Positions 3,316 to 12,065 of a DNA stretch of 64,000 bases are shown piece by piece (position 1 is the stretch's first letter; every line of letters starts with the position of its first letter). The notes under the pieces are model-generated. The model worked only from the letters and a program-made list of their open reading frames with translations, had not been told where the DNA came from and did no database searches. The DNA lies in the NCBI RefSeq assembly GCF_000337735.1, contig NZ_AOHX01000037.1:124001-188000 (forward strand), written 5' to 3'. The stretch comes from Natronorubrum sulfidifaciens JCM 14089 (GTDB lineage Archaea > Halobacteriota > Halobacteria > Halobacteriales > Natrialbaceae). The translations under genes were made by a program, and so were the position numbers.

Positions 3316-4725
3316 TCAGTCGTCGTCTAGCGCTTCGATTCGCTGGACGACTTCCTCGGATGTCTCGACCGATTTCTCGCCCGAGAGGGCATAGAAGACG
3401 ACGCCGAGGATACACCAGCCGAGGACGATGAGCCACTCGTAGGGCCAGACGAGCGCAGACTGGCCGCCGGGCAGGTAGAGCGTGATGAAGATCGCTGTCG
3501 CCACGAACGCGACGATACCGATGACAGGGCCGGCCGGAACCTTGTACGGCCGCTCCATCTCGGGCTCACGGTAGCGCAACACCAGAAACGAGACGACGAC
3601 GAGGAACCAGGCGATGACGATGCCCAGTCCACCGGCGTTGACGATCCACGTGAGCATCTGTTCGCCGAAAAACGGCGCAATTACCGACAGACCGCCGATG
3701 AACAGAATCGCGTTGCTTGGGGTGTTGTACTCCGGATGGACCTTCCCGAGCCATTCCGGAATCATTCCCGACTCGGCGAGTGCGAAGAGCGCGCGACTAC
3801 CGCCGATGATGAACGCGTTCCAACTCGTCATGATACCCGCAATGCCCGCGAGTGCCATCAACTGCCCCGCGACTGTGCTGTCGAACAGGACTTCCATCGC
3901 CTGAGCGGCGGGCAGCGAGCTATCGACGAGTTCCGCCCCTGGAAGGGCGCGACTCGAGCCCCAGATGACGGCCATATAGAAGAGAGCCGCCATACCAACC
4001 GACAGCATGATCAACAGTCCCAGCGTACGGGCTGGGATGTCGGCCTCCTCCGCCGACTGTGGAATAACGTCGAACCCGACGAACATGAACGGCGTCATCA
4101 ACACGACGGCGAAGATGCCGGCTGTACCCGCACCGAAGGACGGATCGGGCGATGGCTGGCCGCTGGTCACCGCGCCGGCGATCAACACGAGACCGGCGAA
4201 CGCGATGACGACGGTCATGATGATCTGGAACTGGGCGGCGATTCGAATGCCGATGTAGTTCAGGTACGTGATTCCGATCGTTCCCAGCACGCCGACGATG
4301 ATCCAGGTGGCGTACACCGGTTCTCCGGCGACGTTCCAGAGTGGAATCGCATCGAAGCCGGGGACGATAAACGCCATCGCGGACGGCAAGGCAACGGCTT
4401 CGAAGGCGGCCACCGTAACGTACCCGAAGATGATCGCCCACGTGCAGACGAACGACCCGATCGGGCCCAGCGCACGAAGGCTGTAGACGTGCTCACCACC
4501 GACCAGCGGCATCGACGACGCCAGTTCGCTGTAAATAATTGCGACGACCCCGACAACGATCCCACCCGCGACGAACGCGGTGATCGCACCCATTGGGCCA
4601 CCTTCATTGATCCAGTCGCCGGCGAGGATGATCCATCCCCAGCCGATCATCGCACCGAACGACAGGATCAGCATCTCTTTGCTACTCAACGCTTTTTCCA
4701 ATCCGCTCTGTGTTGTCTCTGACAT
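3316..4725 (-). CDS. APC-superfamily amino acid permease
   Basis: A 469-residue polytopic protein with about 12 hydrophobic segments and the APC signature near its N-terminus (LSFGAMIGWGWI, then SELASSMPLVGGEH). Such proteins import amino acids or amines with H+ or Na+, or exchange them. Substrate cannot be read from sequence. The gene is divergent from the aminotransferase/glutaryl-CoA dehydrogenase pair across a 457-bp spacer with two matching palindromic sites, so its substrate is probably the amino acid degraded by that pair. A TATA-like box on the minus strand lies near 4758-4766. The C-terminal tail is acidic and cytoplasmic. Confidence 0.88.
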   Translation of the reverse strand: MSETTQSGLEKALSSKEMLILSFGAMIGWGWIILAGDWINEGGPMGAITAFVAGGIVVGVVAIIYSELASSMPLVGGEHVYSLRALGPIGSFVCTWAIIFGYVTVAAFEAVALPSAMAFIVPGFDAIPLWNVAGEPVYATWIIVGVLGTIGITYLNYIGIRIAAQFQIIMTVVIAFAGLVLIAGAVTSGQPSPDPSFGAGTAGIFAVVLMTPFMFVGFDVIPQSAEEADIPARTLGLLIMLSVGMAALFYMAVIWGSSRALPGAELVDSSLPAAQAMEVLFDSTVAGQLMALAGIAGIMTSWNAFIIGGSRALFALAESGMIPEWLGKVHPEYNTPSNAILFIGGLSVIAPFFGEQMLTWIVNAGGLGIVIAWFLVVVSFLVLRYREPEMERPYKVPAGPVIGIVAFVATAIFITLYLPGGQSALVWPYEWLIVLGWCILGVVFYALSGEKSVETSEEVVQRIEALDDD

Positions 4726-4823
4726 TGTTGGCCCTTGACTTTCGTTACCGTATGGGCCATAAATACGACCCTTAATGTATCTTTCGCAAGTGTTGTATAT
4801 TCAGCAAGAATTGAACAATATGA

Positions 4824-4835
4824 TGGATTAGATCC
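4824..4835. promoter_or_regulatory. Putative operator, copy 1 (permease side)
   Basis: TGGATTAGATCC, a dyad with GGAT/ATCC arms around TAG. The same 12 bases recur at 5078-5089 in the same spacer. It lies about 100 bp upstream of the permease start codon. Lrp/AsnC proteins bind short dyads of this kind, and an Lrp-type gene is at 7812-8330, but binding is inferred. Confidence 0.5.
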
Positions 4836-5074
4836 TATTGTAATGTAGAATCTTGTAGGAATGGCAGCTATTTGGACGCCGTCTCTACTATTCGGGCAGT
4901 AAACACAAATGTTAATCCAAACCATGACTGTAATTGACATCGAACATAGTATCTGGTTGACTCGAGTCTCCGTCCCACTACCGTGATCGATCTGCGACCC
5001 GCCGCCGATTGGGAACTGCGGCTGGTCTCTTTCCGGTCCCCTCCCATGTCTGCTCGTACCCCATCACCCCATAC

Positions 5075-5093
5075 TGTTGGATTAGATCCAACA
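5075..5093. promoter_or_regulatory. Putative operator, copy 2 (aminotransferase side)
   Basis: TGTTGGAT-TAG-ATCCAACA, a perfect dyad with 8-bp arms and the same core as 4824-4835. It ends 56 bp before the aminotransferase TATA-like box and about 90 bp before its ATG. An upstream position of this kind fits an activator or an upstream-bound Lrp oligomer better than a repressor over the start site. Confidence 0.55.
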
Positions 5094-5148
5094 TCTGTGC
5101 ACTATCTTAGATTATTGCTGTCTAACGCAAACCACGTGAGATTTCGCA

Positions 5149-5160
5149 TCAAATATATAT
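5149..5160 (+). promoter_or_regulatory. TATA box of the aminotransferase operon
   Basis: The AT-only run AAATATATAT is centred about 28 nt before the ATG at 5183. Archaeal transcription starts about 25-28 nt after the TATA centre, so the transcript should be leaderless. This spacing supports the chosen start. Confidence 0.6.
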
Positions 5161-5182
5161 GTGGTGATGGAAATAGTATGGT

Positions 5183-6553
5183 ATGGCTGTAGGCCCGCCA
5201 ATCGACGACCTTCACTTCGCGATGGAACCATCGGTCGACGAGGTTCCTGGACCGAACTCACGGAGGCTCCTCGACCGACAAGCAGAGATCGACAGCAGCG
5301 CCGTTGCGTATCCCAAACGGATCCCGATCGCCCTCGAGGAAGCTCGCGGCGCGACGGTTCGTGACGTCGACGGCAACACGTTCCTCGACTTCTTCGCCGG
5401 GATCGGCGTCTTGAACGTCGGGCACTCGAATCCGTACGTTCTCGAGGGAACGCAAGACCAACTCGAGTCGGTCGCCCACACGGTTGATTTCCCGACCGAG
5501 GCGCGACTCGACCTCATCGACAAGCTTCGAGAGATCGCCCCCGGCGGGCTGGCTGGCTCGAGTAACGTCGTCTTCGGCGGTCCGAGCGGGAGCGACGCGA
5601 TCGAGGGCTCGATCAAACTCGCCAAACACAACACGGGCCGCCACGGGCTGCTCGGCTTCGAGGGGTCCTATCACGGGACGACCGCAGGCGCGCTCAGCCT
5701 CACGGCGGGCAAGAAGTACAAGAAGGGCTACGGGCCGCTGCTCGCGGATACCGTCCACGTCCCGTACCCGACCCGCAACGCGGGCGTCGGGAGTCAGGAC
5801 GCCTGCGAGCGCTGTCTCGACGCCGTCAAACGGAAGTTCGAGGCCCCTTACGGCGGCCACGAGACGCCGGCCGGTATCTGGGTCGAACCGATTCAGGGCG
5901 AGGGTGGCGTCATCGTACCGCCGAACGGTTTCCTGCAGGGACTTCGTGACATCGCGGACGACAACGACGCGATGTTGATCGTCGACGAGATCCAGACCGG
6001 ACTGGGCCGCACCGGCGAGTGGTTCGCTACGGACCACTTCGACGTGACGCCGGACGCGATCACGATGGCGAAAGCACTCGGCGGCACTGGCCTCCCGATC
6101 GGTGCGATGCTCTACCACGAGAAGTTCGACACGTGGGGGCCGGGCGGCCACGTCGGCACGTTCCGCGGCAACGCACCCGCGATGGTCGGCGGGCTACGTG
6201 CGATCGAGTACATCGAATCGCACGACCTGCTCGCACACGCGACGGAACTCGGCGGCTACCTTCGAGACCGGATCGCCGAAGTCGCGGAGACGACCCCGGA
6301 GATCGTCGACGTGCGCGGGAAGGGCCTGTTCGTCGGCGTCGAGTTCGAGGACGCCGACGGCAACCCCGATGCCGACATCGTCAAGGCGATTCAGGAGTAC
6401 TGTTACGAAAACGGCGTCCTCGTCTGGAGCGCCGGCCGACACGGGAACGTGTTGCGGCTCATCCCGCCGCTCGTTCTCACCCACGAACAGGCGGAATTCG
6501 GCATGGACGTCCTCTGTGAGGGCGTTCGTGCGACGACGGAGGATTCACACTAA
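5183..6553 (+). CDS. Class III aminotransferase (GabT/DavT/lysine aminotransferase type)
   Basis: A 456-residue PLP enzyme that moves an omega-amino group, usually to 2-oxoglutarate. Visible marks are the PLP-phosphate region [19 protein letters not shown] with the PLP-ring aspartate, and the Schiff-base lysine in ITMAKALGG (about residue 297). Length and motifs fit 4-aminobutyrate, 5-aminovalerate or lysine 6-aminotransferases, and these cannot be separated by eye. It overlaps the following glutaryl-CoA dehydrogenase by 1 nt (TAATG), so the two are cotranslated. That partner favours 5-aminovalerate or lysine over 4-aminobutyrate as substrate, by inference. Confidence 0.9.
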
Positions 6554-7716
6554 TGCTCGACTATCTCGACCTCGAGGCAGAGCTTACCGACGAAGAACGA
6601 CTGATCCGCGATACGGCACGCGAGTTCGTCGACGAACAGGTTCGCCCGGACATCGGCGACCACTTCGAAAACGGCACGTTCCCAAAAGAGCTAATCCCCA
6701 AGATGGGCGAGATGGGCTTTTACGCGCCCAACCTCGAGGGCTACGGCTCGCCGAACGTTTCCGAGACGGCCTACGGCCTGTTGATGCAGGAACTCGAGGC
6801 CTGCGATTCCGGCCTGCGGTCGATGGCATCGGTGCAGGGCGCACTCGTGATGTACCCGATCCACGCCTACGGCAGCGAGGAGCAAAAAGAGGAGTGGCTG
6901 CCGAAACTCGGCGCTGGCGAGGCCGTCGGCTGTTTCGGCCTCACCGAACCCGAACACGGCTCGAACCCCACGGCGATGGAGACGTACGCCGAACGCGACG
7001 CCGACGGCTACGTGCTCAACGGCTCGAAGACGTGGATCACGAACTCCCCCATCGCCGACGTTGCGATCGTCTGGGCGCGTGATCGCTCGAGCGACGATAC
7101 GCCGGTTCGCGGATTCCTCGTCGAGACCGATCGCGACGGCGTCAGCACGAACAAGATCACCGAGAAGCTGTCGCTTCGCGCCTCGATCACGGGCGAGATC
7201 GGCCTGAACGACGTCCACGTCCCCGAGGAGAACGTCCTTCCCGGCGTTTCGGGCATGAAAGGCCCGCTGTCGTGTCTCACGCAGGCACGCTTCGGCATCG
7301 CGTGGGGCGCAGTCGGTGCCGCTCGAAACTGTTTCGAGACGGCCCGCCAGTACGCGACGGACCGCGAGCAGTTCGGCGGCCCGATCGGTCGCTTCCAGCT
7401 CCAACAGCAGAAACTCGCGGAGATGGCCACCCAGATCACCCTCGCCCAGCTGCTCATCCACCGGCTGACGGAGCTCAAAGAACGCGGCGAGTTGCGGCCA
7501 CAGCACGTCTCGATGGCCAAACGCAACAACGTCCGCATGGCCCGCGACCAGTCCCGCGTCGCCCGCGAAATGCTCGGTGGAAACGGGATCACGACCGACT
7601 ACTCGCCGATGCGCCACATGGCCAACCTCGAGACGGTCTACACCTACGAGGGAACCCACGACATCCACACCCTCATCCTCGGCGAGGATCTGACCGGTAT
7701 CGCCGCCTACGAATAA
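6553..7716 (+). CDS. gcdH: Glutaryl-CoA dehydrogenase (acyl-CoA dehydrogenase family)
   Basis: A 387-residue flavoenzyme expected to oxidise and decarboxylate glutaryl-CoA to crotonyl-CoA, passing electrons to ETF. It is very like glutaryl-CoA dehydrogenases: GCFGLTEPEHGS, KTWITNSPIAD, ARFGIAWG, GGNGI and YEGTHDIH, where Glu366 is the expected catalytic base. The Arg-Ser of DSGLRS corresponds to residues known in the human enzyme to hold the second carboxylate, which supports glutaryl-CoA rather than a simple acyl-CoA substrate. It is translationally coupled to the aminotransferase. EtfAB, its likely acceptor, is at 59436-61177. Confidence 0.9.
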   Translation: MLDYLDLEAELTDEERLIRDTAREFVDEQVRPDIGDHFENGTFPKELIPKMGEMGFYAPNLEGYGSPNVSETAYGLLMQELEACDSGLRSMASVQGALVMYPIHAYGSEEQKEEWLPKLGAGEAVGCFGLTEPEHGSNPTAMETYAERDADGYVLNGSKTWITNSPIADVAIVWARDRSSDDTPVRGFLVETDRDGVSTNKITEKLSLRASITGEIGLNDVHVPEENVLPGVSGMKGPLSCLTQARFGIAWGAVGAARNCFETARQYATDREQFGGPIGRFQLQQQKLAEMATQITLAQLLIHRLTELKERGELRPQHVSMAKRNNVRMARDQSRVAREMLGGNGITTDYSPMRHMANLETVYTYEGTHDIHTLILGEDLTGIAAYE

Positions 7717-7811: not shown

Positions 7812-8330
7812 CTACTTGTCGTCAGCGGGCAACTGGTGAAAATTGAGCAGCGACTGCTGGCTGTAATCGCGAAGCGTTCCGATCCCCGTGTTTGTCTTGA
7901 TCGTCGAGATGACGAACTTCGAACTCGTGCGACGAATTTCGTCGATTGACTCGTAGTCGTCGACGAGGTCTTCGACCATATCCCGCGAGGTGAGCCGCCC
8001 GATGACGACGAAATCCGTCTCCCCCATCGTAAAATAGACCTGATTGACGCCCTCGATATCGGCGAGCTGTTCGCCGACGCGCTCGTGATAGCCCTCGCCG
8101 AACTCCGCCCAGATTTCGGAGATGATGGTGATGCCGAGACCGACTTTCTCGAGGTCGAGTTCGTACAGTTCGTTCGTGATGACGCCCTCTTCTTTGAGAC
8201 TCTGCAAGCGATAGTGGACCGTCGATTTCGGAATCCCTGTTTTCTCGTGGATGACTTCCGTGTTATCGGTTTCCTGTTCGGCGATCGTGAAGATGATCTT
8301 GACATCCCGCTCGTCCAGTGAGGTGCTCAT
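7812..8330 (-). CDS. Lrp/AsnC-family transcriptional regulator
   Basis: A 172-residue DNA-binding regulator. The N-terminus is a winged helix (MSTSLDERDVKIIFTIAE, then GIPKSTVHYRLQSL as the recognition helix) and the C-terminus is an alpha-beta ligand/oligomerisation (RAM-like) domain with GVNQVYFTMGETDFVV. Such proteins respond to amino acids and bind short palindromes as dimers to octamers. It is convergent with the glutaryl-CoA dehydrogenase gene and is the likely controller of the adjacent permease and catabolic genes through the paired sites at 4824-4835 and 5075-5093. That link is inferred from proximity. Confidence 0.92.
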   Translation of the reverse strand: MSTSLDERDVKIIFTIAEQETDNTEVIHEKTGIPKSTVHYRLQSLKEEGVITNELYELDLEKVGLGITIISEIWAEFGEGYHERVGEQLADIEGVNQVYFTMGETDFVVIGRLTSRDMVEDLVDDYESIDEIRRTSSKFVISTIKTNTGIGTLRDYSQQSLLNFHQLPADDK

Positions 8331-10751: not shown

Positions 10752-10870
10752 ACTTGACATCCACCACGCCGTAAACGACGTGGAATCCCGACTGCCGTTG
10801 GGATATTACGGTTTACAGTCCACGACCTGTTCTCGCGGGGCGAAACGGCCCTCGTTACGATCGAACAGAT
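10752..10870 (-). ncRNA. Putative omega RNA / right-end RNA of the TnpB element
   Basis: TnpB nucleases are guided by an RNA that covers the 3' end of tnpB and the right end of the element. Here the stretch after the stop folds into a TCCC...GGGA stem (10786-10803) and the CCACG...CGTGG stem (10764-10783), then ends at GATGTCAAG, after which host sequence would serve as guide. The 5' boundary is a guess. Existence is inferred from the family and the hairpins. Confidence 0.4.
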
Positions 10871-12065
10871 GGACTGTAGGCTGTGCCAACCAGCCGTTAC
10901 TCCTATCCTCAGAAGGACTCGGAGTTACTTTTCGCCGGATGTTCTCCGCACCGTTCACGTCTGCGTTCGCCACCGTATCGCACTCCTCGCAAACGTACAA
11001 CCCGCGTTCAACACGCTGGGTTCCGTCCTTCGTTTCGCAGGCCGAACACGTCTTTGACGTATCGCGTTCGGACTCAACCGTTAGGTCGATACCTTCAGCT
11101 TCCGCCTTGTACTCGAGCATCGACGTGAAGCGGTCAAACGCCCATCCGTGAAGGTCGAGATTGCCGTGTTTGCCCCAGTTTCGGGACTCGCCGGTATCGT
11201 CGTCTCGGATACCGCCGAGGTCACCGATGACGATCGTCCCGACGTCCCTCTCGACGCACTCCGAAACGATGTGTTTTGAGAGGGTGTGCAAAAAGTGGGT
11301 TCGGCGTTCCGTGCGCTTCCGGTCCAACCGAAGCCGCTCGTTCGAACGGCTGTCGTCGCACTTCGCTTTCTTTCGTCCGAAGTAGTATTCGTCCTCTTTC
11401 AGCGCGTTACCGGGGAAGAGGATCGATTCACCGCCGAACGAAAGCGCGGCAACGTTCGAGATACCGAGGTCGATCCCGGCAGTCTCGTCTCCCGGTGGGT
11501 CGGGATCAATCGACTTTCGGCAGACGAAGTGGAGTCGCCACTCGTCGTACTTGTGGACGGTCCGAACCTGTTGGATGTCCCATTCGGAGAGGTCTACATC
11601 GGGACGTAGCTCGTACTCGCACAGCACGAAGTCCGAGCGGTGCTCCTTCAGGTTGCGTCCTTTCGAGAGGCGAACGCGGGTGAACTGTGCATCCTGCTTG
11701 AAGCCAGCCGCCTTGAACGACACAGTAGAACGCGGGTGGGAATCACCGCGCTTGCGGTAGCCGGGCGGTCGGGCACGGCTATCGCCGTTCCGACGCTTTG
11801 TGAACCAGCCGTTGAACGCTTCAGCGAGTTCTTCGAGAACGCGCTGACTGGATTGAGAATGAAGGTCCGTGTAGCGTTCGTGACCTTTGAGTTCGGATTT
11901 GAGTTCCCCGTCATCGGGGATCTCGCCCGTTTCGTCCCACTGCTCTTGTGCATAGTAGCGACCGACGTTCCAGAGCTTCGATGCAGCCCGTCCGAGTTGA
12001 TCGAGGTCGTCACTCACCTGCCGTGGGTTCGTGATCGACGCCTCGAATGTTCGGTGGATTCGCAT
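10806..12065 (-). CDS. tnpB: RNA-guided endonuclease TnpB (OrfB, IS1341 type)
   Basis: A full-length 419-residue TnpB with no stop or frameshift. The N-terminal wedge/REC part is followed by a RuvC-like fold with GIDLGISN (Asp199), IVIGDLGG (Asp282) and ADVNGAENI (Asp369), and a zinc ribbon with Cys340, Cys343, Cys359 and Cys362. In characterised TnpB proteins the second acid is a Glu in an E-(D/N)-L context. Here that position reads Gly281 and the acid is one residue later, so nuclease activity is uncertain. It sits in a TnpA-less element and must rely on transposase in trans to move. Confidence 0.92.
   Translation of the reverse strand: MRIHRTFEASITNPRQVSDDLDQLGRAASKLWNVGRYYAQEQWDETGEIPDDGELKSELKGHERYTDLHSQSSQRVLEELAEAFNGWFTKRRNGDSRARPPGYRKRGDSHPRSTVSFKAAGFKQDAQFTRVRLSKGRNLKEHRSDFVLCEYELRPDVDLSEWDIQQVRTVHKYDEWRLHFVCRKSIDPDPPGDETAGIDLGISNVAALSFGGESILFPGNALKEDEYYFGRKKAKCDDSRSNERLRLDRKRTERRTHFLHTLSKHIVSECVERDVGTIVIGDLGGIRDDDTGESRNWGKHGNLDLHGWAFDRFTSMLEYKAEAEGIDLTVESERDTSKTCSACETKDGTQRVERGLYVCEECDTVANADVNGAENIRRKVTPSPSEDRSNGWLAQPTVHLFDRNEGRFAPREQVVDCKP

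Follow-up and report, generated by a model that had tools for sequence, protein, structure and literature searches.

The stretch of DNA analysed here, called the window throughout (64,000 nucleotides of Natronorubrum sulfidifaciens JCM 14089, contig NZ_AOHX01000037.1), carries two divergent genes, one for an APC-family amino acid permease (3316-4725, minus strand, start codon at 4725) and one for a class III aminotransferase (AT; 5183-6553, plus strand), separated by a spacer at 4726-5182. A glutaryl-CoA dehydrogenase-type acyl-CoA dehydrogenase gene (GCDH; 6553-7716, plus strand) follows AT with a one-base overlap of the AT stop, as in an operon, and an Lrp/AsnC-type regulator gene (lrp; 7812-8330, minus strand) lies downstream of this AT-GCDH operon in convergent orientation. 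In the spacer the 12-mer TGGATTAGATCC occurs at 4824-4835 and again at 5078-5089, and a preliminary description of the window had taken these copies for a specific operator of a local regulator. By comparison of sequences, the palindromes are real, conserved sites with a fixed place before the permease gene and the AT-GCDH operon in many haloarchaea. They are very probably Lrp-type operators read by this Lrp subfamily, most likely by the 7812-8330 protein.

As first described, there is no other copy of the 12-mer in the window, even when two mismatches are allowed; the count expected from base composition is 0.003 (64 kb, both strands). The second copy is the core of a perfect 8-3-8 dyad, TGTTGGAT-TAG-ATCCAACA, at 5075-5093, as had also been stated, and the first copy is the weaker site, with a symmetric core of GGAT-TAG-ATCC (4-3-4). 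Genome-wide specificity was judged from pattern searches, in which the motif was not scattered: GGATTAGATCC has four exact copies in 3.46 Mb, two of them those of this spacer, and TTGGATNNNATCCAA has a single exact match. The remaining two copies of GGATTAGATCC (C28, C38) fall within protein-coding open reading frames (ORFs), on which ground a genome-wide repeat or transposon footprint was rejected. It is hardly credible that the 12-mers repeat by chance or form a structural element, such as a stem-loop or the remnant of a repeat family, with no regulatory role. A perfect 8-3-8 dyad is not rare in itself (three in the whole window, though just 0.007 expected in the 457-nt spacer), but conservation across genera, de novo rediscovery of the motif and its 30-bp phasing, all set out below, contradict such a reading, as does the finding that the other exact copies in the genome are just two coding matches. 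A Rho-independent terminator or RNA hairpin was also rejected, as there is no terminator-like site and the sites lie upstream of the TATA elements; a bacterial sigma-70 promoter is irrelevant in archaea, and a scan for one gave a single chance-level match.

Alignment of the spacer with those of related haloarchaea, a check named in the preliminary description, found the sites conserved in orthologous spacers of close relatives, and the motif recurs in many genera. Four relatives share the same permease/AT/GCDH/Lrp order, and in these both sites are kept at a near-constant distance from each start codon, in a spacer whose middle can hardly be aligned among the window and the four relatives. The AT-side sites of these relatives are GTTGGATTATATCCAAT, GTTGGATTAGGTCCAAT, GTTGGATGAAATCCAAT and GTTAGATATTATCCAAT, and the permease-side sites range from ATCGGATCTAATCCACA to ATTGGATATTAGCCAAT. 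The distance between the two sites varies, from 254 nt in the window to 250, 247, 245 and 143 nt, the last in G028. What is kept is how far each site lies from its own start, so each belongs to its own promoter, and looping between the two at a fixed spacing is not supported.

A palindrome-constrained de novo search, run on the 180 nt that precede the AT start in each of 27 dereplicated genomes, recovered a 15-bp palindrome, TTGGAT-NNN-ATCCAA, with a log-likelihood of 175 compared with 45 ± 4.5 (maximum 54) in 30 dinucleotide-shuffled sets. As the window's own genome and four close relatives are among the 27, a stricter test followed, with an independent position weight matrix (PWM) built from nine sites, all from clades other than the window's. 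On this matrix the AT-side operator (5075-5093, plus strand), the dyad that holds the second 12-mer and is kept in the four relatives, scores 19.4, and the sites of the window and three other Natronorubrum span 18.7-20.8, against a null (best score in 200 nt of shuffled sequence) with a 99% point of 10.9 and a maximum of 13.9. The permease-side operator ATAGGATCTAATCCATC (4822-4838, minus strand), which holds the first 12-mer at -113 from the start codon, scores 9.7; in relatives it stands at -112 to -115 and reaches 18.2 in G028, again on the matrix from other clades. In 33 named loci outside the training set, a few of which come from genomes already represented among the other loci, matches of at least 11 numbered 17 in 11.3 kb upstream of pathway or Lrp genes versus nine in 58.7 kb of other noncoding DNA, a density about 10 times higher. 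The predicted site is thus a palindrome of about 15 bp ending in TTG...CAA, the form by which archaeal Lrp-type operators are recognised.

The sites are also phased. Across genera, the strong AT-side sites fall at about -107, -77, -47/-48 and -17/-18 from the AT start, with small drift, and the main-site positions of 22 clusters are concentrated at a period of 30 (R = 0.90), as are those of the nine clusters whose site is not at -77 (R = 0.81, P = 0.001). The lattice positions were chosen as top scorers, and because periods of 27-30 fit the coarse classes about equally, the exact 30-bp period rests on a test within promoters, in which +30 from the strong site stands out (z = 5 among offsets) as the place of a second, weaker site. 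Overlap with the B recognition element (BRE) as the sole source of this signal was ruled out: the left half-site alone, which is clear of the BRE, still peaks at +30, with a mean of 1.16 in 17 genomes, whereas shuffled sequences reach -4.5 at most at any offset.

The same 30-bp pair is found on the permease side, at -113 and -83 from the start. The -83 member is a weak auxiliary site, CTTGCTGAATATACAAC (4792-4808, minus strand; PWM 2.2), 30 bp promoter-proximal to the permease-side operator, and its position (-82 to -85) is occupied in relatives too. A TATA-like element, TATTTAT (4759-4765, minus strand), lies 34-40 nt before the permease start codon; it was assigned from sequence and position and is invariant in five genomes. 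On the AT side, the auxiliary half-site CTTAGATTATTGCTGTC (5106-5122, plus strand), with left half TTAGAT, stands exactly 30 bp downstream of the dyad, at the offset enriched in the 17 genomes, and the segment around TTAGAT is almost invariant in three Natronorubrum relatives. A possible weak half-site, GTGAGATTTCGCATCAA (5136-5152, plus strand; PWM -8.3), abuts the TATA element 60 bp downstream of the dyad and was assigned by lattice position only; G028 and other genomes have better sites in this slot (-43 to -48). The AT TATA element, AAATATATAT (5151-5160, plus strand), was recognised by sequence, and the AT transcript, with its ATG at 5183, is probably nearly leaderless.

Two copies of one palindrome, as originally described, do exist, but this understates the arrangement, in which what functions as a unit is a degenerate palindrome of greater length, accompanied by weaker sites at a distance of 30 bp. 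Judged from their positions, several sites share one face of the helix, two or three turns apart, the partners in the window's AT promoter being half-sites only, and the lattice is unusually clear. We suggest, tentatively and with some doubt, that the strongest site has shifted between genera in whole 30-bp steps (-107, -77, -48, -18) with its helical phase kept. If this is true, the regulator would read a phased lattice on wrapped DNA, the strongest slot being free to drift while the phase is fixed.

The Lrp-type gene, placed about 3 kb away in the preliminary description, does lie some 2.7-3.5 kb from the sites. By the domain test its product is assigned to the Lrp/AsnC family, or feast/famine regulatory proteins (FFRPs), with HTH_24 at 5-52 (28.3 bits, cut-off 21.9) and AsnC_trans_reg (RAM) at 81-143 (41.3 bits, cut-off 25), and its relatives in the PDB are Lrp/AsnC proteins. 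Identity as Halobacterium LrpA1 (NF041395) or Lrp (NF041396) was rejected, as the scores, 19.9 of 250 and 38.6 of 190 bits, are far under the NCBIfam cut-offs. Sites are stronger at AT loci where an Lrp of 59% identity or more is found within 7 kb (P = 0.004 by a Mann-Whitney test on dereplicated clusters, a value uncorrected for shared ancestry and including nine sites that had helped to train the matrix). AT and Lrp stay together where the permease and GCDH are absent (G009, G029, G170), and IPKSTVHYR, the recognition helix that alignment identifies in the proposed binder of the window, is common to these Lrps with few changes. In G003 and G006 only a 40%-identical Lrp with the helix LSKSAVHYR stands beside AT, and the AT promoters have no site. 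Spacer conservation, scarcity in the genome and association with Lrp together support the proposal of a specific operator of a local regulator.

We infer Lrp binding, octamer wrapping, activation over repression and the identity of the effector, and propose the following course of events. Lrp dimers would recognise the palindrome TTGGAT-NNN-ATCCAA, and a higher Lrp oligomer would contact the strong site and also the weaker ones, which follow on the same face of the DNA every 30 bp (three helical turns), its contacts thus extending towards the BRE/TATA at both promoters. The trigger would be the amino acid on which the locus acts (lysine, 5-aminovalerate or a related compound as the presumed effector), and in response Lrp would most likely help to recruit TBP/TFB, so that the divergent permease gene and the AT-GCDH operon are switched on. 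Characterised archaeal Lrp relatives act as dimers on short palindromes and as larger assemblies over spaced sites, and archaeal Lrp activators have a site just upstream of the BRE, contact TBP and occupy further sites upstream at two- or three-turn spacing (PMC2995911); the Acidianus BarR homologue is an octamer with the DNA wrapped around it (PMC10201364). By analogy, regulation by Lrp is probably activation of both the permease and the AT-GCDH units.

Several points weigh against this proposal. All P values are inflated because the genomes share ancestry, and in the window's clade the auxiliary AT-side sites are half-sites only (PWM -8 to -9). Despite a linked Lrp, G024 and G300 have only weak sites and G382 has none at -77. 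Upstream of lrp in the window there is no site (best score 1.4), so autoregulation of lrp via this motif was rejected, while BarR is autoregulated. The preliminary description would have counted conservation only with the Lrp orthologue as support. Site strength does track the nearby Lrp, but G260, G290, G364, G057 and G358 have the site in the AT promoter and no Lrp of at least 59% identity in the region examined, and a distant Lrp paralogue may serve these sites. The same five genomes, together with the occurrence in several genomes of at least two Lrp paralogues from this subfamily and the motifs that Lrp paralogues may share (PMC4236453), favour an operator of another regulator, either a distant Lrp paralogue or a member of another helix-turn-helix family, the Lrp gene being merely a neighbour. 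We consider this improbable, as site strength follows the nearby Lrp, Lrp accompanies AT even without GCDH and the permease, and the form of the motif and its three-turn spacing are Lrp hallmarks. Finally, Halobacterium LrpA1 represses its transaminase gene, the neighbouring aspB3 (PMC2894021), so the sign of regulation could be repression.

Such a repressor would act on both promoters and be relieved by the amino acid, differing from the proposed activator in sign only. Besides the behaviour of LrpA1, it is favoured by the sites that in some genera reach -18, downstream of TATA (G376, G383); in the window and most genera, however, the strong site lies 40-70 bp upstream of TATA and leaves the BRE/TATA uncovered. 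Moreover, Ptr2, LysM and Ss-LrpB, when they activate, do so from sites immediately before the promoter (PMC2995911), and BarR is an activator (PMC4977709). Repression is therefore unlikely in our view, if still a real prospect. A 30-bp lattice at one gene across many genera would offer a natural series on how Lrp oligomers read phased sites, and the same series bears on whether the place of a site with respect to TATA decides between activation and repression.

Further Lrp genes and palindromes were encountered among the loci. In G029 (L067:5502-6770) AT is directly followed by a tandem pair of Lrp genes, which have 79% and 77% identity to that of the window. In L134 and L137, Lrp relatives of about 69% identity lie beside biotin-carboxylase/5-oxoprolinase-type genes (recognised by eye) and not beside AT; the palindrome was not found there at up to three mismatches, possibly reflecting a change of target. 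Two Lrp paralogues of 54-57% identity (G000:C1:58242-58679 and G002:C4:124953-125429) have one in-frame stop each and are possibly decaying. A similar palindrome occurs close to the start of a related class III aminotransferase gene at L089:1500-1516 (G002:C2:384667), L135:3085, L196:4019 and L212:4051. This gene is divergent from an ornithine cyclodeaminase-like gene in all four loci, with a 57-60% paralogous Lrp nearby in L135, L196 and L212, and the arrangement resembles another Lrp/aminotransferase system built on the same plan. In L075 (G000:C26:14649-25013) the window genome has a paralogous aminotransferase gene, 63% identical, which is preceded at 83 nt by the palindrome CTTCGATAGTATTCGAT; this different palindrome at a similar upstream position is possibly the operator of another Lrp paralogue.

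A comparable system is BarR of the Sulfolobales, a beta-alanine-responsive Lrp-type protein that activates a divergent beta-alanine aminotransferase gene, and thus likewise an Lrp-type regulator beside an aminotransferase gene. The BarR consensus, TTGGAAAAATTACAA, is a 15-bp semi-palindrome with the same ends as TTGGATNNNATCCAA here (PMC4977709), and the two systems share several regularly spaced sites between promoters and a limited regulon (PMC4977709, PMC10201364). In contrast to BarR, lrp of the window is downstream and convergent instead of being the divergent partner, and its own promoter has no site; the divergent partner is the permease gene, and the operon adds GCDH, which suggests a C5 substrate rather than the beta-alanine of BarR. 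Site centres here are regularly 30 bp apart, whereas Sa-BarR has 15-17 bp spacers and Ah-BarR has spacers of 17 and 27-29 bp, the latter equal to three helical turns (PMC10201364). The window Lrp therefore appears to work like BarR, but is not classed as BarR because the gene order differs and lrp lacks a site of its own.

Ss-LrpB and LysM of Sulfolobus and Ptr2 of Methanocaldococcus likewise have cooperative sites at two- or three-turn centre-to-centre distances, one of them near the BRE, and Ss-LrpB activates permease genes, its core site preceding the transcription start by over 100 bp at two activated targets (PMC2995911). These proteins differ in organism and target, and the likeness noted is one of arrangement. 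Also comparable are LrpA1/aspB3 and Lrp/glnA of Halobacterium salinarum, which are also haloarchaeal Lrp genes adjoining genes of amino acid metabolism; LrpA1 differs in repressing aspB3, where no inverted repeat was found (PMC2894021). Computed recognition motifs exist for eight H. salinarum FFRPs studied by chromatin immunoprecipitation on arrays (ChIP-chip), members of the same protein family; these motifs have been likened to degenerate A/T-rich cores, in contrast to the single exact match of TTGGATNNNATCCAA in the genome here (PMC4236453). Haloarchaeal Lrp-family regulators are numerous and few have a defined operator, and here sequence comparison alone yields a well-defined palindrome along with a target operon and candidate regulator in culturable haloarchaea.

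Concerning the function of the locus, the permease matches Pfam AA_permease_2 with 146.8 bits, its best NCBIfam matches being under their cut-offs. AT, of the 4-aminobutyrate/ornithine-type family, matches Pfam Aminotran_3 with 334 bits, and of the solved structures it comes nearest to a protein annotated as 4-aminobutyrate aminotransferase (293 bits). Among solved structures GCDH appears closest to characterised glutaryl-CoA dehydrogenases, with 434 bits for 2eba and 428 for 1siq, and not to other acyl-CoA dehydrogenases, whose named families reach 279 bits at most; its score on the NCBIfam GlutCoADH_Des model, 244 bits, is below the cut-off of 470. A family III CoA transferase gene, named by eye, often joins the cluster in relatives. 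Because of these family memberships, the gene set suggests catabolism of a C5 amino acid by the lysine/5-aminovalerate route to glutaryl-CoA and crotonyl-CoA, and the locus points to a regulated amino-acid-to-glutaryl-CoA pathway. The library searched gave no paper that connects glutaryl-CoA dehydrogenase with lysine degradation in haloarchaea, and nothing on Lrp with lysine aminotransferase operators. Elsewhere in the window, an ORF at 10806-12065 (minus strand) resembles, by eye, an IS200/IS605-type TnpB with C-terminal CxxC motifs.
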